Positions 8,337 to 33,154 of a stretch of DNA of 64,000 nt are shown here, one piece after another. The stretch's first letter is position 1, and each line of letters opens with the position of its first letter. The position numbers and the translations under genes were made by a program. Source of the DNA: Agromyces cerinus subsp. cerinus (GTDB lineage Bacteria; Actinomycetota; Actinomycetes; Actinomycetales; Microbacteriaceae); the NCBI RefSeq assembly GCF_900142065.1, contig NZ_FSRJ01000001.1:62001-126000 (forward strand). Reading direction: 5' to 3'. The notes under the pieces were generated by a model, which was given only the letters and a program-made list of their open reading frames with translations, was not told where the DNA came from and did not search any database.

Positions 8337-9655
8337 CCAACGACACCACCGCCGCTGCGACGGCGGAGACGTCGACGACGGATGCCCGCCGCCGCCGCAC
8401 CCCGCTCGTCGCGCTCTTCGCCGCGCAGCTCTTCTCGCTCTCGGGCAACGCGATCGCCCTCATCGCGATCCCGATCATCGCGCTCACCGAGACCGGCTCC
8501 CCGCTCGCGGCCGGTGTCGCGGGGGTGTTCGCGACCGTGCCGCTCGTCATCGGCGGCGCGCTCGGGGGAGTGCTCGTCGACCGCTTCGGCTACCGCACGT
8601 CCTCGATCGTCGCCGACATCGCGAGCGGCGTCACCGTGCTCGCGATCCCGGTGCTCGCGGCGACCGTGGGGCTGCACTTCGGGGTGCTGCTCGCCCTCGT
8701 CTTCCTCGGCGGCCTGCTCGACGCGCCCGGCGACACGGCGAAGACCGTGCTCATGCCCGACCTCGCCGCGCTCGCCCGGGTGCCGCTCGCTCGTGCTGCC
8801 GGCGCCCAGTCGACCGTGCAGCGCACCGCCACGATGATCGGCGCCGGCGTCGCCGGCGCCCTCGTGGCGCTCGCCGGCCCGATGCCGGCGCTCGTCGTCG
8901 ACGCCGCGGGCTTCGCGGTGTCGGCGCTGCTCATCGTGTGCTTCGTGCCGCGGCGAGCCGCGGCATCCCCACGGCCGGCTCACGACGGCGCCGATGGCGA
9001 CACGCCCGTGCAGGGCGGGTTCGTCGCCGGCATCCGCTTCATCGCCGGCGCACCGCTGCTGCGCTCGATCGTGCTGCTCGTGACCCTCACGAACGCGATC
9101 GACGCGGCGGGCATGACCGTGCTGAAGCCGGTGTACGCCACGCAGGTGCTCGGGGATCCCGCGGTGCTGGGCTTCATGGTCGGATGCTTCGCGGCCGGCG
9201 CCCTCACCGGGTCGGCGCTCTTCGCCGCCGCGGGCCATCGCTACTCGGGCCGCGTCGTCTTCGCCCTGTGCTTCGTGCTGGCCGGCACACCGCCGTATCT
9301 CGCGATGGCGCTCGGCGCGCCGGTGCCGGTGCTGCTGCCGATCCTCGTGTTCTCGGGCCTCGCGGCCGGAGCGCTCAACCCCATGATGGCGACCGCGATG
9401 TACGGGCTCGTGCCCGACGGCATGCGCGCCCGCGTCTTCGGCGCGATGACCGCGGGTGTCGCGGCCTCGATGCCGCTCGGCGCCTTCCTCGGAGGCCTCT
9501 CGGTGGAGCGATTCGGCCTCGCGCCGACGCTGCTCGGCTGCGCGATCGTCTACCTCGTGCTCGGTTCGAGCCCCCTCTACCTGCGCTCGTTCTCGGGGCT
9601 CGCTGCGGCACGCACCCCTACGGGGGTACGGGGTACGAATGGCTCACCCGGGTGA
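8333..9655 (+). CDS. MFS transporter, probable drug or metabolite exporter
   Basis: The protein has 440 residues with about 12 hydrophobic segments. The loop GGVLVDRFGYRTS after the second segment is the MFS motif A region. A hydrophilic, Ala/Pro/Asp-rich central loop lies at about 215-225. The N-terminal 25 residues are polar and Thr/Ala-rich. It is co-transcribed with the preceding ArsR-type regulator (ATGA overlap), a pairing typical of repressor-controlled efflux. The 12-bp perfect palindrome TCACCCGGGTGA (9644-9655) includes its stop codon. Confidence 0.9.
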   Translation: MTNDTTAAATAETSTTDARRRRTPLVALFAAQLFSLSGNAIALIAIPIIALTETGSPLAAGVAGVFATVPLVIGGALGGVLVDRFGYRTSSIVADIASGVTVLAIPVLAATVGLHFGVLLALVFLGGLLDAPGDTAKTVLMPDLAALARVPLARAAGAQSTVQRTATMIGAGVAGALVALAGPMPALVVDAAGFAVSALLIVCFVPRRAAASPRPAHDGADGDTPVQGGFVAGIRFIAGAPLLRSIVLLVTLTNAIDAAGMTVLKPVYATQVLGDPAVLGFMVGCFAAGALTGSALFAAAGHRYSGRVVFALCFVLAGTPPYLAMALGAPVPVLLPILVFSGLAAGALNPMMATAMYGLVPDGMRARVFGAMTAGVAASMPLGAFLGGLSVERFGLAPTLLGCAIVYLVLGSSPLYLRSFSGLAAARTPTGVRGTNGSPG

Positions 9656-18061: not shown

Positions 18062-18445
18062 TCAGCCCTGGGGGATCGCGGCGACGACGTCGATCTCGAC
18101 GAGGATGTTCGCGAGGCGCGAGCCCACCGTGGTGCGCACCGGGTAGGGCTCGGTGAAGAACTCGGCGTAGGCCGCGTTGTACTCGGCGAAGTCGGCCAGG
18201 TCTTCGAGGTGGGCGGTGACCTTCACGACGTCGTCGAACGACAGGTCGTATTCGGCGAGCACGGCGCCGATGTTGCGCAGCACCTGGCGGGTCTGCTCGG
18301 CGGCGCCGCCGGGCACGACCTCGCCCGTGGCCGGATCCTGCGGGCCGAAGCCGGCGGTGTAGAGGAAGCCGTTGGCGACGACCCCGTGGCTGTAGGGGCC
18401 CGCGGGCTTCGGCGCGTTCGAGAGGGTGACGGCGATCTTGGACAT
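18062..18445 (-). CDS. RidA family enamine/imine deaminase
   Basis: The protein has 127 residues. RidA proteins hydrolyse reactive 2-aminoacrylate-type enamines and imines released by PLP dehydratases to the 2-keto acid and ammonia. Family features are the GPYSHGV start region, AGFGPQDPATG, and the conserved Arg in PYPVRTTVGS that binds the substrate carboxylate. ATG at 18443-18445 with GGAGGA immediately upstream. It is the last gene of the minus-strand operon after iclR; the 61-nt spacer contains about four copies of the hexamer GGTCGT (18467-18489). A PLP deaminase in the same operon offers an obvious source of its substrate. Confidence 0.93.
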   Translation of the reverse strand: MSKIAVTLSNAPKPAGPYSHGVVANGFLYTAGFGPQDPATGEVVPGGAAEQTRQVLRNIGAVLAEYDLSFDDVVKVTAHLEDLADFAEYNAAYAEFFTEPYPVRTTVGSRLANILVEIDVVAAIPQG

Positions 18446-18506
18446 GGTTCCTCCGCTGTGGTGATCGGTCGTGGTCGTGGTCGTGGTCGGTGGCGAGCGT
18501 GCGGAC

Positions 18507-19238
18507 TCAGCCGAGTTCGCGGGCGATGGCGTCGGCGGTCTCGCGCATCGCGGGCAGGTGCGCCCGCAACCGGTCGAGGTCGGCGACCATGCGGATCGCG
18601 GTGACCGAGAGCGCGCCGACGATGCCGAGCGAGCTGCGGATCGGCACGGCGATGCAGTTGACGAAGTCCTCGAACTCGCGGTCGTCGGTCGCCCAGCCGC
18701 GGGAGCGCACGAGGGCGAGCTCCCGGTCGAGCCGCTCGCGGGTGGTGATGGTCAGCTCGGTGTAGCGCTCCCAGGTGATCCCGGCGAGCACCGCGTCGCG
18801 GCCGGCACTGTCGAGGTCGGCGAGGATCGCCTTGCCGACGGCCGAGCAGTTGGGGATGACCGCGCGGCCGATGCGGGAGTACATGCGCACCCCGGACTCG
18901 TCTTCGGCCTTGTCGACGTAGACGATCGAGCGGTCCATGAGCGCGGCGAGGTGCACGGTGTTGCCCGTGCGGCGCTGCAGGCGGCGCACATGCTCGGCGC
19001 CGGCCTCGCGCAGGTCGAGCGAGTCCAACGCCTCCTTCGACAGGGCGGCGAGCCGGGCGCCGAGCGTGTAGCGACCGGATGCCCGGCGGCGCACCCAGCC
19101 GACCTCTTCGAGCGACTGCAGCTCGCGGAACATCGTCGACCGGTGCAGCTCGAAGGCCTCGGCGAGCTCGGCGACCGTGCGCGGGTCGGCCGCGATCGCG
19201 TCGATGATGCGGGCCGCGCGTTTCACGCTCTGCGACAT
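18507..19238 (-). CDS. IclR family transcriptional regulator
   Basis: The protein has 243 residues. The N-terminal winged helix (about 1-65: SVKRAARIIDAIAADPRTVAELAEAFELHRSTMFRELQSL) is followed by the IclR effector domain with YSRIGRAVIPNCSAVGKAILA and ATDDREFEDFVNCIAVPIRS, where the Cys-containing loop frames the ligand pocket. Family ligands are small organic acids and sugar acids, such as 2-keto-3-deoxygluconate for KdgR. ATG at 19236-19238 is 1 nt past the deacylase stop. Likely target: the divergent promoter region with the dyad at 22205-22221 (inference). Confidence 0.93.
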   Translation of the reverse strand: MSQSVKRAARIIDAIAADPRTVAELAEAFELHRSTMFRELQSLEEVGWVRRRASGRYTLGARLAALSKEALDSLDLREAGAEHVRRLQRRTGNTVHLAALMDRSIVYVDKAEDESGVRMYSRIGRAVIPNCSAVGKAILADLDSAGRDAVLAGITWERYTELTITTRERLDRELALVRSRGWATDDREFEDFVNCIAVPIRSSLGIVGALSVTAIRMVADLDRLRAHLPAMRETADAIARELG

Positions 19239-19239
19239 G

Positions 19240-20886
19240 TCAGGCCTCCTCGAGTGCCGCGGTGTCGACCGCCGCGACGTCGGTCGTGATGCCGCCGCGA
19301 CGGATGCCGCGGCCGGGCGTCGCCCCGGTGAGTGCGCCTCCCGCGAGCACGGGCACGCCGGCGACCAGCACGTCGTCGATGCCGACGGCGAGCCCGAGCG
19401 GTTCCACGTAGCTCGCGGTCGCGCGTACGGCATCGGGGTCGACGAGCACGAGGTCGGCGACGAAGCCCTCGCGCACCGCGCCGCGGTCGCCGAGCCCGAA
19501 CCGGGCCGCCGCGCGTGAGGAGACGAGCGCCGCGGCATCCGCCCAGCCGAGCGCGGCCTGCTCGCGCACGAGCATCGCGAGGTATCGGGAGAACGAGCCG
19601 CGCGCCCGCGGGTGCGGGTGGCGGCCGATGAAGATGCCGTCGGAACCGCCGATGGCCGCCCGGTGCGAGAGGATCTCCGCGAGCCCGGCATCGCTGCGCT
19701 CGCGTTGCACGGCCATCACGACGTTGACCTCGAGTCGCGAGGCCACGAGCACGTCGAGGGCGAAGTCGATCGCGTCGATCGACGTGCCCGAGCGACCGGA
19801 TGCCTCGGCAGCCCCCTGTGCGATCGTGAGGCCGTGCGCCCAGTCGTAGTCGGGCGCCGCGACATGGGCGAGCGTGAGCATCGACGGCCACTCGGGGCCG
19901 AGGCCCGCGGAGCGCGTGATGGTCGGGAACCACTCCCGGCGGAGTCGCGCACGCGCCGCGGGGTCGGCGAGTTCGGCGACGACCTCGGACCCGGGCCGCA
20001 CGGTCAGCGAGGCGGGCAGGATCGGCATCGCGAGGATCGAGCAGCCACGCGTGTACGGGTAGGCGTCGAAGGTCGCATCGACGCCGTCGCGCTCGAGCTC
20101 GGCGAGCAGCTCCCGCACGAGGTGCGGTTCGGCGTGGAAGTGCGAGACGTGGATCCGCGCCCCCGTCTCGCGGGCGATCGCGGCCATCTCAGCGATGCCC
20201 GCGGCCGAGTTCGCCTCGTAGCCGCCGCGCATGTGCGAGACGTAGACGGCTCCCGCATCGGCGACGGGCCCGGCGAGGGCGGCGAGCTCGGCGGTGTCGG
20301 CGAAGATGCCGGGCACGTAGTCGAGGCCCGTCGAGAGCCCGAGCGCGCCGTCGGCGAGGCCGTCGGCCACGAGCACCCGCATGCGGTCGAGCTCGTCGGG
20401 CGAGGCGGCATCCGTCGACCGGCCCGAGACCACGAAGCGCACCGTGCCCGCGGGCACGAGCACGCCGGCGTTCACGGCCGTGGTGCCGTCGTAGGCGGCG
20501 AGCAGTGCGGCGATCCCGCCGCCGCGGTAGCTCGGGTGCCCTCCGTTGATCGCGGCGAAGTACTCGGTGGCGTAGGCGCCGTCGCCCGGGGCGTACGAGA
20601 CGCCGTCCTGGCCGCCGATGACGGTCGTGACTCCCTGGCGCAGCAGCGCGAGCTGCACGTCGGGGTCGAAGAGCGCGCCGTCGGCGTGCGAGTGGGCGTC
20701 GACGAAGCCGGGCATGAGCAGCCGGCCACGGCCGTCGATGACGTGGGCGTGGGCGGCGTCGCGGGCGTCGTCGGACGTCGCGGGACCGATGCGTGCGATG
20801 CGCTCGCCGTCGACGACCACGTCGGATGCGCCGGCGCCGGCACCGGCGGCATCGACGACGATCGCGTTCCTGATGAGGATCGACAC
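19240..20886 (-). CDS. N-acyl-D-amino-acid deacylase family amidohydrolase
   Basis: The protein has 548 residues. It is an amidohydrolase-superfamily enzyme of the D-aminoacylase group: beta-sandwich ends plus a TIM barrel with metal ligands HSH (His65, His67), His218 (VSHMRGGY), His249 (HVSHFHA) and Asp416 (GSDGIF). The cysteine metal ligand of classical D-aminoacylases (GNCG) is replaced here by Asp94 in GGQDGVS. GTG start with AGGAG upstream, overlapping the stop of the preceding deaminase gene. Expected reaction: removal of an N-acyl group from a D-configured amino acid. The neighbours suggest N-acetyl-D-glucosaminate as substrate (inference). Confidence 0.88.
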   Translation of the reverse strand: MSILIRNAIVVDAAGAGAGASDVVVDGERIARIGPATSDDARDAAHAHVIDGRGRLLMPGFVDAHSHADGALFDPDVQLALLRQGVTTVIGGQDGVSYAPGDGAYATEYFAAINGGHPSYRGGGIAALLAAYDGTTAVNAGVLVPAGTVRFVVSGRSTDAASPDELDRMRVLVADGLADGALGLSTGLDYVPGIFADTAELAALAGPVADAGAVYVSHMRGGYEANSAAGIAEMAAIARETGARIHVSHFHAEPHLVRELLAELERDGVDATFDAYPYTRGCSILAMPILPASLTVRPGSEVVAELADPAARARLRREWFPTITRSAGLGPEWPSMLTLAHVAAPDYDWAHGLTIAQGAAEASGRSGTSIDAIDFALDVLVASRLEVNVVMAVQRERSDAGLAEILSHRAAIGGSDGIFIGRHPHPRARGSFSRYLAMLVREQAALGWADAAALVSSRAAARFGLGDRGAVREGFVADLVLVDPDAVRATASYVEPLGLAVGIDDVLVAGVPVLAGGALTGATPGRGIRRGGITTDVAAVDTAALEEA

Positions 20887-20895
20887 CGAGGACTC

Positions 20896-22188
20896 CTAGA
20901 AGAACGTGCGCACGAGTGCGACCACGCGGTCGGAACCACCGCCCTCGACGACCGGGATGAGGCGCCACTTGTCGAACGCGGTGCACGGGTGCGAGAGGCC
21001 GAGCGAGACGACCTCGCCGATGGCGAGTTCGAGCGGGCCGTCGGCGCGGAGATAGGCGTGCTGGTCGTTGAGGGCGGTGACGGATGCCCCGGCGAGCGGC
21101 CGCTCGGCGGCACCGGGCGCCTCGGCGACGCCGAAGGGCACGGGCAGGCCCTCGTCGTAGGGGAAGTCGCGCTTGCCGCCGTCGAGCAGCGCGAGGCCGG
21201 GCTCGGGGTGCGAGACGACGCGGGCGTAGCCGCGCATCGCGGGGGCGAGTTCGCCGTCGATCGGCGAGATGCCGTGGTAGAAGCCGTCGTCGTGCAGGAG
21301 CGAGGCGCCCGAGCGGAGGATCCAGCGGGTGCTCCCCGCCGTCGCACCTGCTGCAACGGTTGCCGCGGCTTCCGCGGCGATCGCCGGGGCGAACGCCTCG
21401 GCGACGAGTTCCAGGTACGCGCTGCCGCCGGCCGTGACGATGAGCTCGCCCTCGGCGAGGCCGCGCACGACCTCGTGCACCTCGAGCATCTCGGCGAGAT
21501 AGCCCCGCACGGCATCGAGCACCGCGGGCGAGCGATCGTGGCCGAGGCTGCCCTCGTAGCCGGCCGTGCCCGCGAGCCGGAGCACGGGCGAGGCGGCGAC
21601 GCGCTCGGCGACGCGCACGGCCTCGGCAACGCCGCGAGCGCCCGTGCGACCACCGGCCCCGCCGAGCTCGACGAGGACGTCGATCGGGCGGGGGAGTGCG
21701 AGGCCCGCGAGGCCGCGTTCCATCGCCTCGACGGTCTCGACCGAGTCGACCCACGAGCGGAACGCGACGGCGGAGTCGGCGAGTTCACCGGCGACGAACG
21801 CGAGGGCGGCCGGCGCGACGAGCGTGTTCGCGAGCATGATCGAGGCGACGCCGAACGAGCGGGCCGTGCGCACCTGCCCCGGGGTCGCGAGGGTGAGTCC
21901 GGTGGCGCCCGCGTCGAGCTGGAGCTGCCAGAGGGCCGGGGCCATGGTGGTCTTGCCGTGCGGCATGAGTTCGAGTCCGCGATCGGCGCACCAGCCCTGG
22001 ATCACCGAGGCGTTGCGTGCGAGCGCCCGCTCGTCGAGCGCGAGGAGCGGCGTCCAGAACTCGGCGAGCGCCGGCCCGGTCGCGAGGAACTCGCGCACCG
22101 TGAGGCCGTCGGCGCGGGCGGGCAGGCCCTTGTCTGCTGCGCTCAGCCGCTCGTCGGCGAGTGCTGCGAGTCGCGTGTGCTGCGGCAT
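20896..22188 (-). CDS. PLP-dependent amino acid deaminase (D-serine dehydratase/D-threonine aldolase-like, fold III)
   Basis: The protein has 430 residues and has an alanine-racemase-like N-domain with the PLP lysine at Lys79 (MPHGKTTMAP) and a C-terminal domain with the metal pair His...His-x-Cys (NDQHAYL, then SHPCTAFDKW), the zinc site of metal-dependent D-serine dehydratases. Such enzymes eliminate the beta-hydroxyl of D-hydroxy-amino acids to give an enamine and then the keto acid. Start ATG at 22186-22188 with GAGAGGGG upstream. First gene of the operon with the deacylase, IclR and RidA. D-glucosaminate to 2-keto-3-deoxygluconate would fit the downstream kinase and aldolase. Automated pipelines often label this family amino acid deaminase or alanine racemase. 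Confidence 0.88.
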   Translation of the reverse strand: MPQHTRLAALADERLSAADKGLPARADGLTVREFLATGPALAEFWTPLLALDERALARNASVIQGWCADRGLELMPHGKTTMAPALWQLQLDAGATGLTLATPGQVRTARSFGVASIMLANTLVAPAALAFVAGELADSAVAFRSWVDSVETVEAMERGLAGLALPRPIDVLVELGGAGGRTGARGVAEAVRVAERVAASPVLRLAGTAGYEGSLGHDRSPAVLDAVRGYLAEMLEVHEVVRGLAEGELIVTAGGSAYLELVAEAFAPAIAAEAAATVAAGATAGSTRWILRSGASLLHDDGFYHGISPIDGELAPAMRGYARVVSHPEPGLALLDGGKRDFPYDEGLPVPFGVAEAPGAAERPLAGASVTALNDQHAYLRADGPLELAIGEVVSLGLSHPCTAFDKWRLIPVVEGGGSDRVVALVRTFF

Positions 22189-22204
22189 CCGGAGCCCCTC
22201 TCGT

Positions 22205-22221
22205 GTTGCAGATGCTGCAAC
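22205..22221. promoter_or_regulatory. dyad operator candidate between divergent deaminase and kinase operons
   Basis: GTTGCAG (22205-22211), ATG, CTGCAAC (22215-22221): a perfect 7-bp inverted repeat in the 72-nt divergent promoter region. A related half-site (CTGCACA) follows at about 22247. The IclR regulator in the operon is the likely ligand-responsive binder (inference by position). Confidence 0.6.
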
Positions 22222-22260
22222 GCGTTTGCGCCGAATCTGCACACCCGACAGCATAGGGGC

Positions 22261-23184
22261 GTGCCTGACATTCCGCTGCCCGAAGTCGTCGCCCTCGGCG
22301 AGACCATGGCGCTCGTCGCCCCCGTGTTCGCCGAACCGCTCGAGACGGCCGACGAGTTCCGCGTCGACTCGGCCGGCGCCGAGGCGAACGTCGTCGCCCA
22401 CCTCGCGGCCCTCGGTCGTCGCGCCGCGTGGGCGGGGCGACTGGGCGACGATGCGCTCGGTCGGCGCGTCGCGGGGCACCTGCGCGACCGAGGCGTCGAC
22501 CTGCGCTGGGTCGAGACCGACGACGGGGCGCCGACAGGCGTCTACTTCAAGGATCCGGGTCGAGGCGTGCAGTACTACCGGGCAGGGTCGGCGGCTTCGC
22601 GCATGACGCCGTCCTTCCTCGACGCGCTCCCGCTCGACACGGCACGGGTCGTGCACGTCAGCGGGATCACGCCGGCGCTCTCCGCGAGCTGCGACGCGCT
22701 CGTCGACGCACTCCTGGGCCGGGTCGCCGCCGCGCCCGCGATGCTGAGCTTCGACGTCAACCACCGGAGCGCGCTCTGGCCCGCAGGGGTCGCGGCCGGT
22801 CGCCTGCTCGAGCTCGCCGCCCGCGCCGACCTCGTCTTCGTGGGGCTCGACGAGGCCGAGGCGCTCTGGGGCACTGCGACGCCCGACGCCATGCGGGCGC
22901 TGCTGCCCGAGCCCGCGCTCCTCGTCGTGAAGGACGGCGCGATCGGTGCCACCGAGTTCCGCGGCGGTGCGGATTCCGGGTCGACCCACGTTCCGGCGCT
23001 GTCCGTCGAGGTGGTCGAGGCCGTCGGGGCCGGCGACGCCTTCGCGGCCGGGTACCTCGCGTCGCTCCTCGCCGGCGGCGACCCGAGTGATCGACTCGCC
23101 GCCGGACATGCCCGAGCCGTCACGGTGCTCGGCGGCACCGCAGACTTCCCCCTTGCCGAACCCACCACGAGGAGCACCCGATGA
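22261..23184 (+). CDS. kdgK: PfkB family sugar kinase, probable 2-keto-3-deoxygluconate kinase
   Basis: The protein has 307 residues. It shows the PfkB N-terminus (VVALGETMALVAP), substrate-binding GAEANVVAHLAALGRRAAWAG, and the C-terminal signature EAVGAGDAFAAGYLA with the catalytic Asp. KdgK members phosphorylate 2-keto-3-deoxygluconate to KDPG; the specificity is inferred from the KDPG aldolase that overlaps its stop (ATGA at 23181-23184). The GTG at 22261 is the only start that keeps the complete N-terminal strand. It is divergent from the deaminase operon across the dyad at 22205-22221. Confidence 0.85.
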   Translation: MPDIPLPEVVALGETMALVAPVFAEPLETADEFRVDSAGAEANVVAHLAALGRRAAWAGRLGDDALGRRVAGHLRDRGVDLRWVETDDGAPTGVYFKDPGRGVQYYRAGSAASRMTPSFLDALPLDTARVVHVSGITPALSASCDALVDALLGRVAAAPAMLSFDVNHRSALWPAGVAAGRLLELAARADLVFVGLDEAEALWGTATPDAMRALLPEPALLVVKDGAIGATEFRGGADSGSTHVPALSVEVVEAVGAGDAFAAGYLASLLAGGDPSDRLAAGHARAVTVLGGTADFPLAEPTTRSTR

Positions 23185-23792
23185 CCGCCATCAGCAACGC
23201 CGAGTTCGACGCGATCTTCGAGGGGCAGCCGCTCATGGCGATCTTCCGGGGCATGGGCGCCGAGCGGAGCCTCGAGCTCGCCGAGCTCGCCTGGGGCCTC
23301 GGCATCGACGTGATCGAACTGCCGATCCAGACCGAGGCCGACCTCGAGGCGCTGCGCGCCGTCGCCGCTGCCGGGCGCGCTGCCGGCCGGATCGTCGGGG
23401 CGGGCACCGTCGTGTCGGTGCGGCATGTCGAGCTCGCGGCTTCCGCCGGCGCGGCCTTCACTGTGAGCCCGGGCTTCGATCCGGTGGTCTCGCGTGCCTC
23501 GGCGCAGGCGGGGTTGCCGCCGATGCCGGGCGTCGCGACCGCGACCGAGGTGCAGGCCGCGATGGCCTCGGGCCTCACCTGGCTGAAGGCGTTCCCGGCG
23601 TCGCTCCTCGGGCCCGCGTGGTTCCAGGCGATGGCCGCCCCGTTCCCCGGTGCCCGCTTCGTCGCCACCGGCGGCATGGATGCCTCGAACGCGGGAGCGT
23701 TCCTCGCGCGTGGTGTGCGCGCCGTCGCCGTCGGCTCGGCGCTCGAGGACCCGGCGCAGTTGCCGGCGCTCGCCGCCCTGCTCGCCGAGTAG
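23181..23792 (+). CDS. eda: KDPG/KHG aldolase (2-dehydro-3-deoxy-phosphogluconate aldolase)
   Basis: The enzyme cleaves KDPG to pyruvate and glyceraldehyde-3-phosphate. It has 203 residues, a class I aldolase with Schiff-base Lys136 in WLKAFPA and Glu46 in VIELPIQTE. Phosphate-binding GARFVATGGMD and GVRAVAVGSAL follow. Overlap of 4 nt with the kinase gene implies coupled translation. It completes an Entner-Doudoroff-type lower route from the keto-deoxy acid made by the divergent operon. Followed by a strong terminator. Confidence 0.95.
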   Translation: MTAISNAEFDAIFEGQPLMAIFRGMGAERSLELAELAWGLGIDVIELPIQTEADLEALRAVAAAGRAAGRIVGAGTVVSVRHVELAASAGAAFTVSPGFDPVVSRASAQAGLPPMPGVATATEVQAAMASGLTWLKAFPASLLGPAWFQAMAAPFPGARFVATGGMDASNAGAFLARGVRAVAVGSALEDPAQLPALAALLAE

Positions 23793-23935: not shown

Positions 23936-24023
23936 CGCTTCCAGTAACGCGTGAGCACCGAGATCCTGCACGCGGCACTGCGCACCACCTTCCACGCAAC
24001 GAAGCACGAGAGGAATGCCGGAG

Positions 24024-25688
24024 ATGACTCGAACCAAACGCTCCTTCGCGGTGGCACTCGCCGCCGGAGCGGCCGCGATCGCCCTGGGGATGACCGGATG
24101 CACGCCGTCGGCAGGAGGAACCGGCGACGATGCCTCGGTCCTCCGCGTCTGGGCGGGCAGCGCCACCCCGATCAACAACAACTTCAACCCGTTCGCCGTC
24201 GACACGGCCGTGCATGCGACCTTCGGCGTGATCTACGAACCGCTGTTCTTCTTCAACCAGCTCTCGGCGGATGCGCCGGTCGGCCTCGTCGGCGACAGCT
24301 ACGAGTACAGCGAGGACGGGCGCACGCTCACCGTCACGATCAAGCCCGACCTCAAATGGAGCGATGGCGAGGACCTCACGGCCGACGATGTCGCGTTCAC
24401 CTTCGGGTACGGTTCGAACAAGTCCGAGCAGTTCGTCTCGGCCGAGGCGACCGACGCCACCACCGTCGTGCTCACCTACACCGAGCCGCAGTTCACGAGC
24501 GCCTCGCTCACGCTCGGTTCGACGTACATCATCCCCGAGCACATCTGGGCCGACATCGACGACTTCATGGCCGAGACGAACCCCGAGCCCGTCGGCTCCG
24601 GTCCGTACGTGCTGAAGAGCTTCTCCGATGCTGCCTACACGGTCGAGGCCAACGAACTCTTCCGCGACGGCGCTCCCGCCGTGACCGAGGTGCAGTACCT
24701 CGGCCTGGACTCGAACCAGTCGTCGCAGGACCTGCTGACGACCGGCAAGATCGACTGGGTCGGCCAGTTCATCGCGAACCCCGACGCCGTCACGGGCGAG
24801 GGCGACATCACGACGCTGAACCTCCAGCAGGACCCGACGACGATCACGACGTGCGCGAACGCCGACCTCGGGTGCGAGGGCGCGCAGACCGACCCGGCCG
24901 TGCGCCAGGCGATCAACGTCGCGATCGACCGGGCCACGATCGCCGACAAGGCGTTCGCCGGACTGGCGGGCGAGTCCTCGCCGTCGTTCACCCTGCAGCC
25001 GCGCGACGAGCAGTGGCTGAGCGACCCCGAGCTCGCCACGAGCCCCCAGGAGGCGAACGCCGCAGAGGCGGGTGCGATCCTCGAGGCCGCCGGCTACACG
25101 AAGGACGCCGACGGCTTCTACGGCAAGGGCGGCACGGCCTTCGAGATCGACCTGTTCTCGCCCGACGGCTGGACCGACTACAACGACGCCGCGAAGCTCA
25201 TCTCCGAGCAGGCGGCCGAGGCGGGCATCCGCATCAACGCCCGCACCGTCTCCGATGCCGAGTACTGGACGCCGATCCAGTCGGGCGACTTCCAGATGGC
25301 GCTCTACGGACTCACGCAGAGCCTCGTCGCCGACCCGTACTCGAACTACCACGAGTACTTCGCCGGCACCTCGACCGCGAAGGTCGGCGAGACCCCGCTC
25401 GTCGGTCAGAACTACGCGCGCTACTCGAACCCCGCCGTCGACGCGGCCGTGCTCGCGGCCGGTGCGACGCAGGACGTCGCCACGAAGCAGGCGGCCTACG
25501 CGACCATCCAGGCCGAGATCGCGCGCGACCTCCCGTACATCCCAGTGGTGCTGAACGCCTCGCAGTCGTTCTTCAACACCGAGAAGTTCAGCGGATGGCC
25601 GAGCGAGGGCGACCTGTACGCCGCACCGTTGCCGTACCTCGCGGTGGCCAACGCGGTCGTGCTCTCGCACCTCACCCCGGCGAAGTAG
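24024..25688 (+). CDS. ABC transporter substrate-binding lipoprotein, SBP_bac_5 (peptide/oligosaccharide) family
   Basis: The protein has 554 residues. It has a lipoprotein signal peptide with Lys/Arg residues, a hydrophobic core and lipid-attachment Cys26 in LGMTGC. Family-5 features follow: VIYEPLFFFNQLS, LKWSDGEDLTADDVAFTF and AVRQAINVAIDRATIADKAF. I chose the ATG at 24024 because GAGAGGA (24008-24014) is 9 nt upstream; the ATG at 24015 directly abuts it. Family 5 binds peptides but also chitin and cello-oligosaccharides; the co-located glycosidase, ROK regulator and amino-sugar kinase favour a sugar ligand (inference). First gene of a five-gene ABC operon. Confidence 0.92.
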   Translation: MTRTKRSFAVALAAGAAAIALGMTGCTPSAGGTGDDASVLRVWAGSATPINNNFNPFAVDTAVHATFGVIYEPLFFFNQLSADAPVGLVGDSYEYSEDGRTLTVTIKPDLKWSDGEDLTADDVAFTFGYGSNKSEQFVSAEATDATTVVLTYTEPQFTSASLTLGSTYIIPEHIWADIDDFMAETNPEPVGSGPYVLKSFSDAAYTVEANELFRDGAPAVTEVQYLGLDSNQSSQDLLTTGKIDWVGQFIANPDAVTGEGDITTLNLQQDPTTITTCANADLGCEGAQTDPAVRQAINVAIDRATIADKAFAGLAGESSPSFTLQPRDEQWLSDPELATSPQEANAAEAGAILEAAGYTKDADGFYGKGGTAFEIDLFSPDGWTDYNDAAKLISEQAAEAGIRINARTVSDAEYWTPIQSGDFQMALYGLTQSLVADPYSNYHEYFAGTSTAKVGETPLVGQNYARYSNPAVDAAVLAAGATQDVATKQAAYATIQAEIARDLPYIPVVLNASQSFFNTEKFSGWPSEGDLYAAPLPYLAVANAVVLSHLTPAK

Positions 25689-25738
25689 GCCGCCGGTCCC
25701 ATGGAACGAACCCTTCCGAACTCGAGGACGGCAGCGGC

Positions 25739-26743
25739 ATGAGCTTCTACCTTCGGCGGGTCGCCTTCTACCTGGTGACCCTCTGGGCGGCGATCTCGCT
25801 CAACTTCCTGCTCCCGCGGCTCCTCCCGGGCGACCCCGCCGCCATCATGCTCGGCAAGCTCCGGCGTGCCAGCGGCGGGCGCCCGCTCTCCGAGGAGACG
25901 ATCGAGGCCATCACCTCGATCCTCGGCGCAGGGAAGGACATGTCCCTCTGGGACCAGTACGTGGCGTACTGGGGCCGGTTGCTTCAGGGAGACCTCGGCG
26001 TCTCCTCCACGAGGTATCCGGCCTCGGTCGCCGATCTCATCGCGGCGGCCCTGCCGTGGACGATCATCCTGGTCGGCGTCGCGACCGTCATCTCCTTCGT
26101 GCTCGGCATCATCGTCGGCGCATGGGTGGGATGGCGGCGAGGCACCGCGCTCGACCACCTGGTGCCGGTCACCACGGTCTTCCAATCCATCCCGTACTTC
26201 TGGCTCGCCCTCGTGCTCGTCGCGGTGTTCTCGGTGCAGTTGGGCTGGTTCCCGATCGTCGGCGGGTACGACGTCTTCGAGTTCCCGGCCGGCCCCGAGC
26301 TCAGCTGGGCGTTCGTCGGCAGCGCGATCTACCACGCCATCCTCCCGGCGATCACGATCGTGCTCTCCTCGGTCGGCGGCTGGCTCCTCGGCATGCGCAA
26401 CATGATGGTGTCGACGATGTCGGAGGACTACGTCGTCACCGCCGAGGCGAAGGGGCTCACCCCGCGACGGGTGCGCACGAAGTACGCCTCGCGCAACGCC
26501 GCCATCCCGAGCCTCGCCGGTTTCGGCATCGCCCTCGGCTTCGTCGTCGCCGGCTCCATCGTCATGGAGCAGGTGTTCAGCTATCCGGGCATCGGCAAGC
26601 TCATGATCCAGGCCGTGCAGGGCCTCGACTACGCGCTCATGCAGGGCGTCTTCCTCGTGATCACGCTCACCGTGCTCGCCGCCAACTTCTTCATGGACCT
26701 CATCTACGGCTTCATCGACCCGAGGGTGCGACACAATGGATGA
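25739..26743 (+). CDS. ABC transporter permease, DppB type
   Basis: The protein has 334 residues and about six membrane segments, beginning with the DppB-like YLRRVAFYLVTLWAAISLNFLLPRLLPGDP. The cytoplasmic coupling (EAA) loop reads EDYVVTAEAKGLTPRRVRTKYASRNA at about 225-250, and the C-terminus ends DLIYGFIDPRVRHNG, a usual DppB ending. GAGGA upstream at 25723-25727. It overlaps the second permease by 8 nt. Confidence 0.94.
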   Translation: MSFYLRRVAFYLVTLWAAISLNFLLPRLLPGDPAAIMLGKLRRASGGRPLSEETIEAITSILGAGKDMSLWDQYVAYWGRLLQGDLGVSSTRYPASVADLIAAALPWTIILVGVATVISFVLGIIVGAWVGWRRGTALDHLVPVTTVFQSIPYFWLALVLVAVFSVQLGWFPIVGGYDVFEFPAGPELSWAFVGSAIYHAILPAITIVLSSVGGWLLGMRNMMVSTMSEDYVVTAEAKGLTPRRVRTKYASRNAAIPSLAGFGIALGFVVAGSIVMEQVFSYPGIGKLMIQAVQGLDYALMQGVFLVITLTVLAANFFMDLIYGFIDPRVRHNG

Positions 26744-27823
26744 CTCCCAGCCCACCCTCGATCGCGCCGACGACGCCTACGCGACGGGCGACGACGCGCC
26801 GTTCCAGTCGCCCGTCTCCGCCGAGGCGGTGCGCGAGACGACCCGCGAGGCGACCGCCACCGCCGCGATCGCGGCCGCACGTGCGACGCGCGGCGGCCGG
26901 TTCCGGCACATCCTGCCGAGCCGCTCCGGCAAGCTCATCACCGGTGTCGTGATCGTCGGCCTCATCACGCTGTTCGGCATCTTCGGCCCGATGATCGCCC
27001 AGCCGCCCCGTGACTCGAGCAACGAGGCGCTGCAGCCGCCGTCGGCCGAGCACTGGCTCGGCACGACCAAGCTCGGCTACGACGTCTTCTCGCAGCTCGC
27101 CTGGGGCACGCAGGGCTCGCTCTTCATCGGCCTCGTCGCCGGACTCGTCGCCCTCTTCCTCGCCGTGGTCTTCGGCGTGTTCGCCGGCTACTTCGGCGGC
27201 GTGCTCGACGAGGTGCTCACGCTCTTCACGAACATCGTGCTCGTGATCCCGGGCCTGCCCGTCGTCATGGTGATCGCCGCCTACGTGCAGACCGCCGAGG
27301 GCCTCGGGCCGCTCGCCCGAAGCTCCCTCCTCGTCGCGCTCGTGCTCGGCATCACGGGCTGGGCGGGCTCCGCCGTGGTGCTGCGGGCCCAGGCGCGCTC
27401 ACTGCGCACCCGCGAGTACGTCGCCGCAGCCCGGGTCGCGGGCGAGAAGCCCGGCCGCATCATCTTCGTCGAGATCCTTCCGAACCTCGTGCCGCTGCTC
27501 GCGGCCCAGTTCATCTTCGGCGTCATCTTCGCGGTGCTCGGCGAGGCGGGGCTCTCGTACCTCGGCCTCGGGCCGACCGGGTCGATCACGCTCGGCACGA
27601 TGCTGAACGACGCCCAGACCGGCCAGGCGGTGGGCACGGGTGCCTGGTGGTGGTTCGTGCCTCCGGGCCTCATCATCGCCGCGCTCGGCGCCGGACTCTC
27701 CCTCATCAACTTCGCGATCGACGAGGTCGTGAACCCGAAGCTCAGGCTCGCGCCTGAGAACGCGAAGCGCCAGCGCAGGGCCGCGAAGGCCGGCAAGGGC
27801 GTCGCCGATACCGGAGCATTCGC

Positions 27824-27827
<4 letters not shown>
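26736..27827 (+). CDS. ABC transporter permease, DppC type
   Basis: The protein has 363 residues. It has a long polar N-terminal extension (about 60 residues, Ala/Thr/Arg-rich), then the DppC pattern: first membrane helix, HWLGTTKLGYDVFSQLAWGTQGSLFIGLVAG, EAA loop EYVAAARVAGEKPGRIIFVEILPN, and a Lys/Arg/Ala-rich cytoplasmic tail. Pairs with the preceding permease to form the transmembrane channel. Overlaps the next gene as ATGA. Confidence 0.94.
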
Positions 27828-28707
<880 letters not shown>

Positions 28708-28711
<4 letters not shown>

Positions 28712-29556
28712 GCGGGCGGGCGACTGCGATCGAGGCCACGACCCTCGAGGCGCGCAACCTGGTCAAGGACTTCCGGCTGCGGAGCGGCACGAAGGTGCGC
28801 ACCCTGCACGCGGTGAAGGATGTCTCGTTCACCCTCGAACCGGGTCGCACGATCGCCCTCGTGGGCGAGAGCGGCTCGGGCAAGTCGACGATCGCGCGCA
28901 TGATGGCCAAGCTCGAGACGCCGTCGTCGGGCGAGGTGCTGCTCGACGGACGCGTGAGTGCGACCCGCGGCGGGGGCCTCGCCCGCTACCGGCGCGACGT
29001 GCAGATGGTCTTCCAGGACCCGTTCAGCTCGCTGAACCCGTTCCACCCGATCCTGCACCACCTCGAACGGCCGTTGCGCATCCACAACCCGCGGCTCTCG
29101 TCGCGGCAGATCCGCGAGCGGGCCGAGGAGCTCCTCGAACGCGTTCGCCTGTCACCGGCGGCGACGTTCGCCGATCGCCGTCCGCACGAGCTCTCGGGCG
29201 GTCAGCGGCAGCGCGTCGCGATCGCCCGTGCGCTCGCCCCCGGGTCGCGGTTCATCATCGCCGACGAGCCGGTGTCGATGCTCGACGTGTCGATCCGCCT
29301 CGGCGTGCTGAACCTGCTCGCCGAGCTGCAGCGGCAGGAGCACCTCGGCGTGCTCTACATCACGCACGACCTCGCGACCGCGCGGCACTTCTCCGACGAG
29401 ATCCTGGTGATGTACCGCGGGGAGATCGTCGAACGCGGGCCGAGCGAGCAGGTGATCCTCGATCCTCGGCACGAGTACACGAAGACCCTGCTCGAGGCCG
29501 CGGCCGACCCGGATCGACTCGGGCGACTGCGCGACGATGTGCGGAACGGCGGGTGA
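28708..29556 (+). CDS. ABC transporter ATP-binding protein, DppF type
   Basis: The protein has 282 residues. It has Walker A GESGSGKSTIA, Q-loop MVFQDPFSSLNPFHPI, signature LSGGQRQRVAIARAL, Walker B FIIADEPVSMLDVSI and H-loop YITHDLATA. Together with the DppD-type subunit it powers the transporter. Last gene of the operon; 69 nt separate it from the ROK gene, with no terminator visible, so read-through is possible. Confidence 0.94.
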
Positions 29557-29565
29557 GCCGCCAAT

Positions 29566-29591
29566 CAGTAAAGATTCCTTGCAGATAGAGT
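29566..29591 (+). promoter_or_regulatory. ROK gene promoter region with CAGTAAAGAT motif
   Basis: CAGTAAAGAT at 29566-29575 matches, in opposite orientation, the motif in front of the ABC operon (23919-23928). A -10-like TAGAGT lies at 29586-29591. The shared motif is the best candidate for the ROK repressor's own site. Confidence 0.45.
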
Positions 29592-29625
29592 GACCACCAA
29601 CACGAAACGAGAGAGGCGGCCTGCC

Positions 29626-30780
29626 GTGAACCAGATCGACCCGGGCACCCCGACGTGGCTCGCGGCGCGCAACGACCGCACCGCCTTTCGGCTCCTCCTC
29701 GAACACGGTCCGCTCACACGGTCGCGTCTCGGCGAGCTCACCGGGCTCTCGAAGCCGACCGCATCGCAGATGCTCGCCCGGCTCGAGCGGGTCGGCCTCA
29801 TCCGGCCGGTCGGCGAGCGGTCGGGCGGCCGCGGGCCGAACGCGATCACGTACGGTGTGCGCACCGATCGCATCACGGGCGTCGCGATCTCGATCCTCGA
29901 CCGCGCCATCCAGGCGGTCGTGGTCGACGCCGTCGACCACGACCACCCGATCGTGCAGATCGCGACCGATGGGCACGAGCGTTCTCCCGAGGGCGACGTG
30001 CGCGCCGCCGTTCGGGCCGCCTGCGCGGAGGCCGGCATCGACGAGAGCACGGTCAGCCGCGTCGTGATCGGCGTGCAGGCCGCGTTCTTCGTCGACGGCG
30101 ACGAGCTCTCGTTCACCGACACCCTGCCCGGGTGGCCGGAGGTCGGGTCGCGGGCTCGCATCGAGCAGGAGCTCGGCCTCCAGGTGACGATCGACAACGA
30201 CGTCAACCTCGCGACGATGGCCGAGCGCTCGTCCGGCGCGGCGCAGCAGGCTGCGAGCTTCGCGCTGTTCTGGATCGGCGACGGTCTCGGCGTCGGACTC
30301 GACCTCGGCGGGGTGGTGCACCGCGGTGCCTCGGGCGGGGCCGGAGAGATCGGCTACCTCGCGGTGCCGAGAACGGCGGCTCCGCTCGCCCCCGCGGCGA
30401 ACGACTTCACCGACCTGCTCGGCGGCCCGGCCGTCGCCCGCCTCATCGGCGGCGACGACGAGACGCTCGCCGAGGTGCTGCCCCGACTCGCCGCCGACGA
30501 CGACGCCCTGTCGGCGCTCGCCGACCGGGTGATCCTCGCCGTCAACCCCCTGCTCGCGATCCTCGATCCCTCGATGATCGTGCTCGGCGGGCCCACGGGC
30601 ACCGCCGGCGGTGCCCGCCTCGCCGAGCTCGTCGCGGAGCGCGTCGACCCGGCAGCGCACCCGAAGCTCGCGATGCGCACGAGCGGCACCGGCGCCCAGC
30701 CGGTGCTGCTCGGCGCGCGCCAGCAGCTCGTCGAGCAGATCCGCGACCACCTCGAGGCGGACATCTCGCTCGCCACCTGA
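29626..30780 (+). CDS. ROK family transcriptional repressor
   Basis: The protein has 384 residues. A winged helix (about 10-75: NDRTAFRLLLEHGPLTRSRLGELTGLSKPTASQML) is fused to a ROK sugar-kinase-like domain with IDNDVNLATMAE and GVGLDLGGVVHRGASGGAGEIGY. The zinc site (CxCGxxGCxE) and the His of GEIGH that characterise active ROK kinases are missing, so it is a ligand-sensing regulator rather than a kinase. GTG at 29626 has GAGAGG at 29611-29616; a GTG at 29590 would add 12 residues but overlaps the -10 box. Likely controls the ABC operon and the GH4/kinase genes around it. Confidence 0.92.
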   Translation: MNQIDPGTPTWLAARNDRTAFRLLLEHGPLTRSRLGELTGLSKPTASQMLARLERVGLIRPVGERSGGRGPNAITYGVRTDRITGVAISILDRAIQAVVVDAVDHDHPIVQIATDGHERSPEGDVRAAVRAACAEAGIDESTVSRVVIGVQAAFFVDGDELSFTDTLPGWPEVGSRARIEQELGLQVTIDNDVNLATMAERSSGAAQQAASFALFWIGDGLGVGLDLGGVVHRGASGGAGEIGYLAVPRTAAPLAPAANDFTDLLGGPAVARLIGGDDETLAEVLPRLAADDDALSALADRVILAVNPLLAILDPSMIVLGGPTGTAGGARLAELVAERVDPAAHPKLAMRTSGTGAQPVLLGARQQLVEQIRDHLEADISLAT

Positions 30781-30794
30781 CTCGGCCGCAGAGA

Positions 30795-30816
30795 GCGGAT
30801 GCCACGGGGCATCCGC
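30795..30816 (+). terminator. GGATGCC hairpin after the ROK gene
   Basis: 9-bp arms GCGGATGCC (30795-30803) and GGCATCCGC (30808-30816), loop ACGG. Member of the GGATGCC/GGCATCC palindrome family; no T-tract. Confidence 0.6.
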
Positions 30817-30884
30817 CGCCCGGCCATCGACCCTTTCGTTCCGCGCTCGCGCGCGGGGCGCACCACGCACGGAATTGAGGACTG

Positions 30885-32144
30885 ATGAAGCTCGCCATCG
30901 TCGGCGGAGGTTCGACCTACACGCCCGAACTCATCGACGGGTTCGCACGCCTGCGCGACACGCTGCCGCTCGAGGAGATCCGTCTCGTCGACCCCGACGA
31001 GCACCGTCTCGCGCTCGTCGCGGGCATGTCGCAGCGCATGCTCGAGCACGCCGGGCATGCCGCGAAGGTGATCGGCACGACCGACCTCGTCGCCGGCGTC
31101 GCCGATGCCGATGCCGTGCTCATCCAGTTGCGGGTCGGCGGGCAGGACGCCCGTCACGCCGACGAGACCTGGCCGCACGAGGCCGGATGCATCGGCCAGG
31201 AGACGACCGGGCCCGGTGGCCTCGCCAAGGCGCTGCGCACCGTACCCGTGGTGCTGCGCATCGCCGACGTCGTGCGGGCGCATGCGAAGCCCGACGCCTG
31301 GATCGTCGACTTCACGAACCCCGTCGGCATCGTCACCCGCGCGCTGCTCGAGGCGGGCCACCGCGCCGTCGGCCTGTGCAACGTCGCGATCGGCTTCCAG
31401 CGCCGCTTCGCCTCGCTCTTCGACGTCGACCACGACCGGGTGAGCCTCGGCCATGTCGGCCTCAACCACCTGACCTGGGAGCGGAGCGTCGTCATCGACG
31501 GCGCCGACCGGCTGCCCGGGCTGCTCGAGCACCGACTCGGCGAGCTCGCAGGCGAGGTGCACCTGGCACCGGCGCTCATCGCGCAGCTCGGCGTCGTGCC
31601 CTCGTACTACCTGCGCTACTACTACGCGCACGACGAGGTGCTGCGCGAGCAGCTGCACGAGCCGACGCGGGCCGAGGCGGTGCGCGCGATCGAGCGAGAG
31701 CTCCTGGAGCTCTACGCCGACCCGGCCCAGCACGAGAAGCCGGCAGCGCTCGAGGGCCGCGGCGGCGCGTTCTACTCCGAGGCGGCGATCGAGCTGCTCG
31801 CGGCGATGCGCGACGGCGAGAGCCGCTCCCGCGTGGTCAACCTGCGCAACGACGGGGTGCTGCCGTTCCTGCCCGACGACCACGTCATCGAGGTTCCGGC
31901 CGTGTTCCGCGACGGGGGATTCGTCGCAGACCCGGTCGCGCCGCTGCCCGACGACATCCGCGGTCTCATCGCCGGGGTCGCCGGCTACGAGCGCCTCGCG
32001 CTCGACGCGGCGGTGCACGGCGGTCGCGATCGCGTGCTCCGCGCGATGCGTGCGCACCCGCTCGTGCTGCAGCACGACCGGGCCGAGCAGCTCACCGACC
32101 TGCTCATGGCGGAGAATGCGCCGTTCCTGGAGTGGGCGCGATGA
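30885..32144 (+). CDS. glycoside hydrolase family 4 enzyme, 6-phospho-beta-glucosidase-like
   Basis: The protein has 419 residues. GH4 enzymes cleave glycosides by an NAD+-dependent oxidation-elimination mechanism needing a divalent metal. Visible: dinucleotide fold VGGGSTYTPEL (6-16), GQETTGPGG (104-112), DFTNPVGIV around Asn145, metal ligands Cys165 (GLCNVAIG) and His195 (GLNHLTW), and the Tyr cluster PSYYLRYYYA with the probable catalytic base. GAGG ribosome site before ATG. Overlaps the kinase gene as ATGA. Most characterised GH4 of this type act on 6-phosphorylated beta-glucosides or amino-sugar analogues, but there is no PTS here, so phosphorylation would have to come from the adjacent kinase. 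Confidence 0.93.
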   Translation: MKLAIVGGGSTYTPELIDGFARLRDTLPLEEIRLVDPDEHRLALVAGMSQRMLEHAGHAAKVIGTTDLVAGVADADAVLIQLRVGGQDARHADETWPHEAGCIGQETTGPGGLAKALRTVPVVLRIADVVRAHAKPDAWIVDFTNPVGIVTRALLEAGHRAVGLCNVAIGFQRRFASLFDVDHDRVSLGHVGLNHLTWERSVVIDGADRLPGLLEHRLGELAGEVHLAPALIAQLGVVPSYYLRYYYAHDEVLREQLHEPTRAEAVRAIERELLELYADPAQHEKPAALEGRGGAFYSEAAIELLAAMRDGESRSRVVNLRNDGVLPFLPDDHVIEVPAVFRDGGFVADPVAPLPDDIRGLIAGVAGYERLALDAAVHGGRDRVLRAMRAHPLVLQHDRAEQLTDLLMAENAPFLEWAR

Positions 32145-33154
32145 GCGGCGTGATCGTCGCCGTCGACGGCGGAGGCTCGAAGACCGACGCCGTCGCGCTC
32201 ACGATCGAGGGCGAGCTCGTCGCCCACGAACGGGGTGCCGGCTCGAGCCCGCACTTCGAAGGGCTCGGTGAGGCGGTCGCCGTCGTCGACGAGCTCGTGC
32301 GTGCGGTTGCGGGGGAGTTCCCCGTCGTGCATGCGGGGCTCTACGTCTCGGGTCTCGACCTGCCCGTCGAGGTCGAGCAGTACGCCGCCTCGATCGCCGG
32401 CTTCGCGTGGTCCGGGTCGTCGACCGTCGTCGCCAACGACCTCTACGCCGTGCTGCGCGCGGGCACCGACGAGCCCGACGCGGTGGCGATCGTCTGCGGC
32501 ACCGGCGTGAACGCGGTCGGCGTGCGCGCCGACGGCGCCGAGGTGCGCTTCCCGTCGCTCGGCGCCCTCTCGGGCGACTGGGGCGGCGGCAGCGGCATCG
32601 GCGAGCAGGTGCTCTGGCATGCCGCGAGGGACGTCGACGGCAGGGGGCCGCGAACGGTGCTCACCGCGGCGATCGTCGAGCAGCTCGGCGCCGGCTCGGT
32701 GCCCGCCCTCATCGAGGACCTGCACTTCGGCCGGCGCGACTCGAGCGAGCTCACGGCGCTCGCGCCCGCCGTCTTCGAGGCCGCACGGACGGGCGACGCC
32801 GTGGCGGCGGGGATCGTCGATCGTCAGGCCGAGGAGATCGTGGCGTTCGCCCGTGCCTGCGTGACGCGACTCGGGCTCGCCGACCGCGCCGTTCCGATCG
32901 TGCTCGGCGGCGGGATCGTCCGCTCGGGCGACGTACGGCTCATCGGCGGCATCACTTCGGGGCTCGCCGCCGTCGCTCCCCGGGCGCGCATCGAGATCCT
33001 CGATGCGTCGCCGATCGTCGGAGCGGCGCTGCTCGCGCTCGAACGGGCGGGGGCCGGCGCCGAAGCGCTCGACCGGGCGCGTGACGCGGTCACGCAGGCG
33101 ACACGGATGACGCCCGCCGCGGCCGTGCGCGAGGCGGCGCCCGTCGCGCGTTGA
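32141..33154 (+). CDS. BadF/BadG/BcrA/BcrD-type kinase, probable N-acetylglucosamine/glucosamine kinase
   Basis: The protein has 337 residues with the ASKHA fold: phosphate-1 motif VDGGGSKTDAVAL at the N-terminus, ANDLYAVLRAG, IVCGTGVNAVGV (phosphate-2) and LSGDWGGGSGIGEQVLWHAARD typical of the GlcNAc/glucosamine kinase branch of BadF proteins (compare Vibrio GspK and clostridial MurK), and the C-terminal GGGIVRSGD adenosine motif. Start by ATGA overlap with the GH4 gene. The Ala-rich C-terminal 40 residues look disordered. Role inferred: phosphorylating imported or released amino sugars. Confidence 0.88.
   Translation: MSGVIVAVDGGGSKTDAVALTIEGELVAHERGAGSSPHFEGLGEAVAVVDELVRAVAGEFPVVHAGLYVSGLDLPVEVEQYAASIAGFAWSGSSTVVANDLYAVLRAGTDEPDAVAIVCGTGVNAVGVRADGAEVRFPSLGALSGDWGGGSGIGEQVLWHAARDVDGRGPRTVLTAAIVEQLGAGSVPALIEDLHFGRRDSSELTALAPAVFEAARTGDAVAAGIVDRQAEEIVAFARACVTRLGLADRAVPIVLGGGIVRSGDVRLIGGITSGLAAVAPRARIEILDASPIVGAALLALERAGAGAEALDRARDAVTQATRMTPAAAVREAAPVAR

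Follow-up and report, generated by a model that had tools for sequence, protein, structure and literature searches.

The closest described system to the gene cluster considered here is ong, the oxidative chitin pathway of Pseudoalteromonas prydzensis. In its description, OngB deacetylates N-acetyl-D-glucosaminate (GlcNAc1A) and OngC deaminates the product to 2-keto-3-deoxygluconate (KDG); the pathway also includes a kinase for KDG and the RidA protein OngD, which is essential, and some genera add KdgA (PMC9537276). The same text sets a census threshold of at least four ong homologues at more than 30% identity and reports the complete pathway only from Gammaproteobacteria and one betaproteobacterium (PMC9537276). 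We analysed a stretch of 64,000 nucleotides (the window) from the actinobacterium Agromyces cerinus subsp. cerinus (contig NZ_FSRJ01000001.1), in which a preliminary description had read two divergent gene runs as an oxidative amino-sugar pathway comparable to a route known in marine Gammaproteobacteria. That route is real and corresponds to ong (PMC9537276), and the window cluster would work like ong without being a member of it. An open-access literature search found no actinobacterial GlcNAc1A pathway, absence there being no proof; the accessible parts of an Arthrobacter chitinase paper give the route through lytic polysaccharide monooxygenases (LPMOs) as background and contain no GlcNAc1A (PMC13106269), and in those of an Aeromonas paper OngB and OngC were not found (PMC11653859).

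Open reading frame (ORF) calling and family profiles placed all six genes of the preliminary description where they had been reported, and ORFs and Pfam matches agree on their families: deacylase, pyridoxal-phosphate (PLP) enzyme, RidA, PfkB kinase, 2-keto-3-deoxy-6-phosphogluconate (KDPG) aldolase and IclR. The leftward run holds RidA, IclR, deacylase and PLP enzyme; the rightward run, from 22261, holds kinase and aldolase, whose ORFs overlap by four bases, and both runs diverge at 22189-22260:

18062-18445, minus strand: RidA-family protein (PF01042, 4e-34; over the TIGR00004 cut-off), putative enamine/imine hydrolase
18507-19238, minus strand: IclR-family regulator, KdgR-like (PF01614 and PF09339; best NCBIfam model KdgR, 143.9 bits with a cut-off of 275)
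19240-20886, minus strand: Asp-type D-aminoacylase-like amidohydrolase (PF07969, 3.4e-22; residue map, tree, alignment), proposed N-acyl-amino-aldonate deacylase
20896-22188, minus strand: fold-III PLP/metal dehydratase-deaminase (PF14031, 9.5e-18; closest PDB entry 3gwq), proposed D-glucosaminate deaminase
22206-22221, no strand: palindrome-like site, candidate IclR operator, conserved between the divergent PLP and kinase genes, reading TTGCAGATGCTGCAAC in the window
22261-23184, plus strand: PfkB kinase with a GTG start (PF00294, 3.7e-45; closest PDB entries 4du5, PfkB, and 1v19, KDG kinase), proposed KDG kinase
23181-23792, plus strand: KDPG/2-keto-4-hydroxyglutarate aldolase of the Eda family (PF01081, 1.3e-32)

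We consider it highly probable that these genes encode a pathway from an N-acyl-2-amino-2-deoxyaldonate to pyruvate and triose phosphate, and for the substrate itself we lean towards GlcNAc1A as the best guess. The Asp-type amidohydrolase would convert an N-acylated 2-amino-2-deoxyaldonate, most likely GlcNAc1A, to D-glucosaminate; the PLP/metal enzyme would dehydrate D-glucosaminate, with RidA speeding the loss of ammonia to give KDG; the PfkB kinase would phosphorylate KDG to KDPG, which the aldolase would split into pyruvate and glyceraldehyde-3-phosphate. We infer each of these reactions, as well as the acyl group and the gluco configuration. Another known route also feeds KDPG aldolase by deamination of glucosaminate, but there phosphorylation comes first and no deacylase is known to take part. 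The order of steps from deacylase to KDPG aldolase, as first proposed, is backed by the gene families and by their conserved co-occurrence.

For this co-occurrence, 144 loci were examined, 128 of them Asp-type (Asp in place of Cys97 of OngB) and one Cys-type by motif; 15 untyped loci, of which eight are Cys-type by residue map, six read GQDG and one GQTG, were excluded from the counts. The named loci comprise the 80 best among 581 confirmed relatives, genes in the fetched loci were called with our own simple gene caller or with tblastn, and some loci were entered twice (L041 and L123; L046 and L140), so that rows are not independent. Within 6 kb of the 128 Asp-type deacylase genes, tblastn found the PLP gene in 110 cases, RidA in 108, IclR in 53, the kinase in 50 and the aldolase in 44. 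The expectation in the preliminary description that kinase and aldolase would accompany the other genes held in part: kinase or aldolase is present in 55 loci and both in 39, and PLP enzyme, RidA, kinase and aldolase occur together in 38 (21 outside the genus of the window), whereas in 73 loci kinase and aldolase are both missing from the 6-kb range. Because the same families recur jointly, in many gene orders and in other genera, the six-gene grouping is more than chance.

The many loci in which the trio of deacylase, PLP enzyme and RidA lacks kinase and aldolase would suit the ordinary breakdown of N-acyl-D-amino acids, for instance N-acetyl-D-serine or N-acetyl-D-threonine, in which a D-serine-type dehydratase follows the deacylase and the kinase and aldolase are mere neighbours. 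The deacylase is indeed closest to D-aminoacylases and the PLP enzyme to D-serine deaminase, and DsdX, a D-serine carrier, belongs to the GntP family, members of which occur in some of the loci. However, kinase, aldolase or both stand beside the trio in 55 of the 128 loci, in many gene orders; N-acetyl-D-serine would lead to pyruvate directly, leaving both enzymes superfluous; and the enzyme has neither Cys97 nor Lys254, which the 13 Cys-type rows retain. We regard this explanation as quite improbable.

Neighbouring genes for transport and sugar release bear on the amino-aldonate pathway as well. A GntP permease lies in 10 of the 128 loci, nine of which have the kinase, and the two permeases that were scanned both exceeded the gluconate symporter cut-off. 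A major facilitator superfamily carrier with a YheO-PAS/helix-turn-helix regulator was found in 12 loci, ten of them with aldolase. A glycoside hydrolase family 20 (GH20) hexosaminidase is present in 13 loci (two verified by Pfam), including those of Cellulosimicrobium, Oerskovia, Myceligenerans, Sanguibacter, Promicromonospora, Georgenia and Flavimobilis. Seven loci contain a lactonase homologue, accompanied in L038, L114 and L145 by a short-chain dehydrogenase/reductase (SDR), which is over the 'glucose 1-dehydrogenase' cut-off in L038 and not in L145. A family of about 390 amino acids (L133, 12944-14125), which matches nothing in Pfam and nothing in the PDB at an E value below 0.37, adjoins deacylase, PLP and RidA genes in 11 searched loci (homologues in L103, L127, L128, L129, L134, L137, L143, L146, L149 and L170); in those genera it may belong to the pathway as a component not yet described.

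Residue by residue, the window deacylase keeps H68, H70, H222, H252, Y285, D368 and R379 (PpOngB numbering) and has at 97 an Asp, Asp94 in the window protein's own numbering, as well as Tyr at 226, no residue aligned at 254 and Ile at 298; positions 290-292 read G-C-S, with Ser292, a mark of OngB, retained. The substrate-binding residues used for comparison are those given in the OngB structure paper (PMC12017989). OngB (PDB 9KB1/9KB3, PMC12017989) and the subtype V D-aminoacylases (1M7J, 3GIP) share by sequence a common fold family, and their HxH, two metal His, catalytic Asp, Tyr285 and Arg379 positions are common with the window deacylase. In contrast to both, the window enzyme has Asp and Tyr replacing Cys97 and Glu226, Ile at 298 and no counterpart of Lys254, and thus neither the Cys metal ligand nor the Lys254 carboxylate contact that mark subtype V. 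The change is consistent across the clade: Asp97 and Tyr226 occur in 55/55 Asp-type rows, from all of which Lys254 is absent in the residue map, and Cys97, Glu226 and Lys254 occur in 13/13 Cys-type rows. From the alignment, Asp97 may serve as a metal ligand.

Profile comparisons and a quick tree gave a similar picture for the deacylase. The window deacylase is over no NCBIfam cut-off among the models shown, a 15-row deacylase profile scored two D-aminoacylases at 374 and 361 bits versus 321 bits for OngB, a PDB profile comparison gave no close solved structure for the clade, and the tree placed the window deacylase apart from OngB. Orthology to ong was rejected for the deacylase on the residue map, the tree, identities and profile scores. 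The idea that the window holds the same system as the marine route was abandoned: the residues differ, and the deacylase is not nearer OngB than D-aminoacylases.

The altered active site is open to two other accounts. In a pathway of the same shape, the substrate could be another aminoaldonate, for example N-acetyl-D-galactosaminate degraded by way of 2-keto-3-deoxygalactonate (KDGal) and its phosphate (KDPGal), or could carry a non-acetyl N-substituent, and the active site would have changed because of this other substrate. Besides the clade-wide Asp for Cys97, Tyr for Glu226 and missing Lys254, this account can draw on the kinase, whose best NCBIfam models, matched below cut-off, are bifunctional KDG/KDGal kinases. 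The aldolase, on the other hand, is nearer the natural KDPG aldolase 1wa3 (108.6 bits) than the KDPGal aldolase 2v81 (70.4 bits), and the chitin-type binding protein and the association with GH18 genes described below also speak against it; we judge it unlikely. The second account makes the Asp-type enzyme a ring opener for amino-sugar acid lactones or lactams, with D-glucosaminate itself imported. The replacement of Cys by Asp with loss of Lys254 throughout a clade that has no close solved member would accommodate this, but the HxH, both metal His, Tyr285, Asp368 and Arg379 positions are retained and seven loci have separate lactonase genes, and we find a ring opener very improbable.

A few deacylase relatives depart from the common pattern. 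In L109 a deacylase of the clade has GQTG for the usual GQDG, so that the putative ligand is missing. Asp-type relatives with GQDG and no PLP or RidA partner nearby occur in Planctomycetota (L154-L158, L160) and in an unplaced metagenome-assembled genome (L163). L073 (genome G094) is a mixed arrangement: its deacylase is Cys-type, has Leu at 298 and is accompanied by GH20, a NagB-like gene, PLP enzyme and RidA.

In the PLP enzyme, K79, H377, H400 and C402 are invariant in 59/59 aligned rows, and the PLP lysine, the His/Cys metal motif and PF14031 fit the fold-III D-serine dehydratase-like class; His400 and Cys402 are presumably zinc ligands, as in D-serine dehydratase. The quick tree groups the OngC references in a clade of their own (SH-aLRT 99) with the window enzyme outside, and at 32-36% identity orthology to ong was rejected here too. 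As ong-type references we used the clusters of P. piscicida (L097) and Vibrio (L098), which have equal gene content and were labelled in the present analysis. Identities to the window were 27-32% for the deacylase, 32-36% for the PLP enzyme, 26-30% for the kinase and 33-35% for RidA and aldolase, so that the window proteins straddle the 30% line of the ong census.

The likeness to ong lies in a single cluster with deacylase, PLP deaminase, RidA and KDG kinase working on unphosphorylated intermediates; KDPG aldolase is in the window cluster and, in ong, in only some genera (PMC9537276). RidA agrees at the level of the family (33-35% to OngD), as do, below NCBIfam cut-offs, the KDG kinase and KDPG aldolase. 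The window enzymes, however, belong to other clades: the deacylase does not show the OngB residues, and the PLP enzyme falls outside the OngC clade. The two systems also differ in regulator (IclR versus MurR/RpiR), transport (ATP-binding cassette (ABC) versus SSS/TonB importers) and glycosidase (GH4 with a kinase versus GH20), and in the lack of an LPMO from the window genome. Two other clusters carry OngB-type residues. The one in the betaproteobacterium Cupriavidus campinensis (L101) is an ong variant that differs in its importer: next to a deacylase with Gln298 and Ser290-292 and an OngC-clade PLP enzyme, it contains RidA, kinase and aldolase, a regulator of RpiR-like type and a GntP-like permease. 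On a Klebsiella pneumoniae plasmid (L099), the gene at 7914-9353, annotated as D-aminoacylase, has the OngB residue pattern beside an OngC-clade 'amino acid deaminase' and so probably encodes a GlcNAc1A deacetylase.

The 72 bases between the two runs contain TTGCAGATGCTGCAAC at 22206-22221. Among 23 intergenic regions between divergent PLP and kinase genes, 19 match TTGCRNATNNTGCAAC perfectly, L052 and L058 from other genera among them; L079 and L092 each deviate at one base, L034 at two and L055 at five. As the pattern was derived from the same 23 regions, this count is a description and not a test. The IclR protein probably acts at the divergent promoter and may be what binds this site. A wider operator regulon was rejected, the sole other exact 15-base match in the window genome being intragenic (own gene caller) and one-mismatch sites numbering two genome-wide versus one for a reversed control pattern. 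A promoter and terminator scan found none.

The cluster had been ended at 23792, which is too short, as same-strand genes run on to 33154 and read as an oligosaccharide import and cleavage module (24015-33154) beyond the six-gene set:

24015-25688, plus strand: family-5 solute-binding protein of chitooligosaccharide-binding type (PF00496; PDB neighbours)
25739-26743, plus strand: ABC permease, DppB type (ORF; this and the next three labelled by eye and synteny)
26736-27827, plus strand: ABC permease, DppC type (ORF)
27824-28711, plus strand: ABC ATPase, DppD type (ORF)
28708-29556, plus strand: ABC ATPase, DppF type (ORF)
29590-30780, plus strand: ROK-family regulator (PF00480, 4.2e-17)
30885-32144, plus strand: GH4 glycosidase, 6-phospho-beta-glucosidase-like (PF02056; closest PDB entry 5c3m, 288 bits)
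32141-33154, plus strand: BadF-type sugar kinase, NagK-like (PF01869; hexokinase 2e2n, 65 bits; MurNAc/GlcNAc kinase 8zo3, 64 bits)

The binding protein matched 6lzu and 5yqw best, at about 177 bits; these are named peptide-binding in the output, and we take them to be Vibrio chitooligosaccharide-binding proteins. It scored 157 bits with 1zty, named Chitin Oligosaccharide Binding Protein, and 143-123 bits with 1vr5, 4pft and 4pfu; metal- and peptide-binding entries begin lower, at 103 bits for the oligopeptide-named 4jsd and 87 bits for nickel binders. The GH4 enzyme is closest to 6-phospho-beta-glucosidases in the PDB comparison. Importer, NagK-like kinase and GH4 would probably serve the uptake and cleavage of GlcNAc dimers in oxidized or unoxidized form, with phosphorylation possibly preceding cleavage. 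The Georgenia (L150) and Flavimobilis (L152) loci carry a homologue of the importer (42-74% identity) directly before GH20, deacylase, PLP enzyme and RidA. The very near relative G018 (L252), whose aspartokinase is identical to that of the window, keeps ABC, ROK, GH4 and BadF genes (87-98%) and the PLP gene (88%) and has jointly lost RidA, IclR, deacylase, kinase and aldolase from the corresponding stretch. The import and cleavage module is thus separable from the six-gene set, and G018 offers a natural comparison strain.

Across the genus, the deacylase occurs in 32 of 59 other genomes, G033 being counted as positive though its gene is in two pieces. It is present in 28 of 29 genomes with GH18 (Fisher 1.9e-11) and in 9 of 14 with the control family GH10 (p 0.54); in the window genome there is a single GH18 gene, whose start looks signal-like by eye. 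The co-occurrence with LPMOs proposed in the preliminary description appeared in the raw count, all eight LPMO genomes of the genus having the deacylase (Fisher 0.006). Phylogeny was controlled with a quick LysC-Asd tree, which gave eight supported independent pairs differing in deacylase; GH10 then differed the same way in 2.5 pairs and the opposite way in 0.6.

The recurrent six-gene set, the GntP permeases and the loci with GH20 or with SDR and lactonase favour the degradation of GlcNAc1A, as do the chitin-type binding protein, the L150 and L152 importers, the GH18 association, KdgR as the closest regulator model and the joint gene loss in G018. Several observations pull the other way. Besides the 73 loci without kinase and aldolase, neither enzyme lies within 6 kb in any of the 13 GH20 loci or the seven lactonase loci. 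The amino-sugar clue and the KDPG clue therefore come mostly from different loci, which reduced the odds that we give to both the substrate class and GlcNAc1A; the two lines of reasoning are connected chiefly by GntP and by the common deacylase, PLP and RidA genes. The GntP family itself includes the D-serine carrier DsdX, though the DsdX model matches below cut-off. The deacylase is without Cys97, Lys254 and Gln298 of OngB, and in G018 the PLP gene and the ABC-GH4-kinase module persist where the other genes are lacking. With phylogeny controlled, GH18 differed the same way in 4.9 of the eight pairs and the opposite way in none (median p 0.0625), and LPMO in 0.9 and none. The LPMO family (PF03067), present in 18 of 199 relatives, is absent from the window genome; the LPMO association was dropped as support because of the 0.9 of eight pairs. 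Overall, the chitin link of the deacylase is no more than suggestive.

A broader proposal, which we put forward tentatively and with some doubt, is that a second, separately recruited oxidative amino-sugar pathway, with an undescribed Asp-for-Cys amidohydrolase subtype, extends across Actinomycetota and has two feeds. In one, C1-oxidized chitin fragments would be imported through the chitooligosaccharide-type ABC system, with GH20 or with kinase and GH4; in the other, in clusters with SDR and lactonase, GlcNAc would be oxidized inside the cell by a non-phosphorylating route that needs no LPMO. If this is true, oxidative amino-sugar catabolism would be widespread among actinobacteria instead of mainly gammaproteobacterial, concealed by annotations like 'alanine racemase' and 'amidohydrolase family protein' (as in L095), and two pathways of one logic would have arisen from shared superfamilies, with a metal-ligand position changed.

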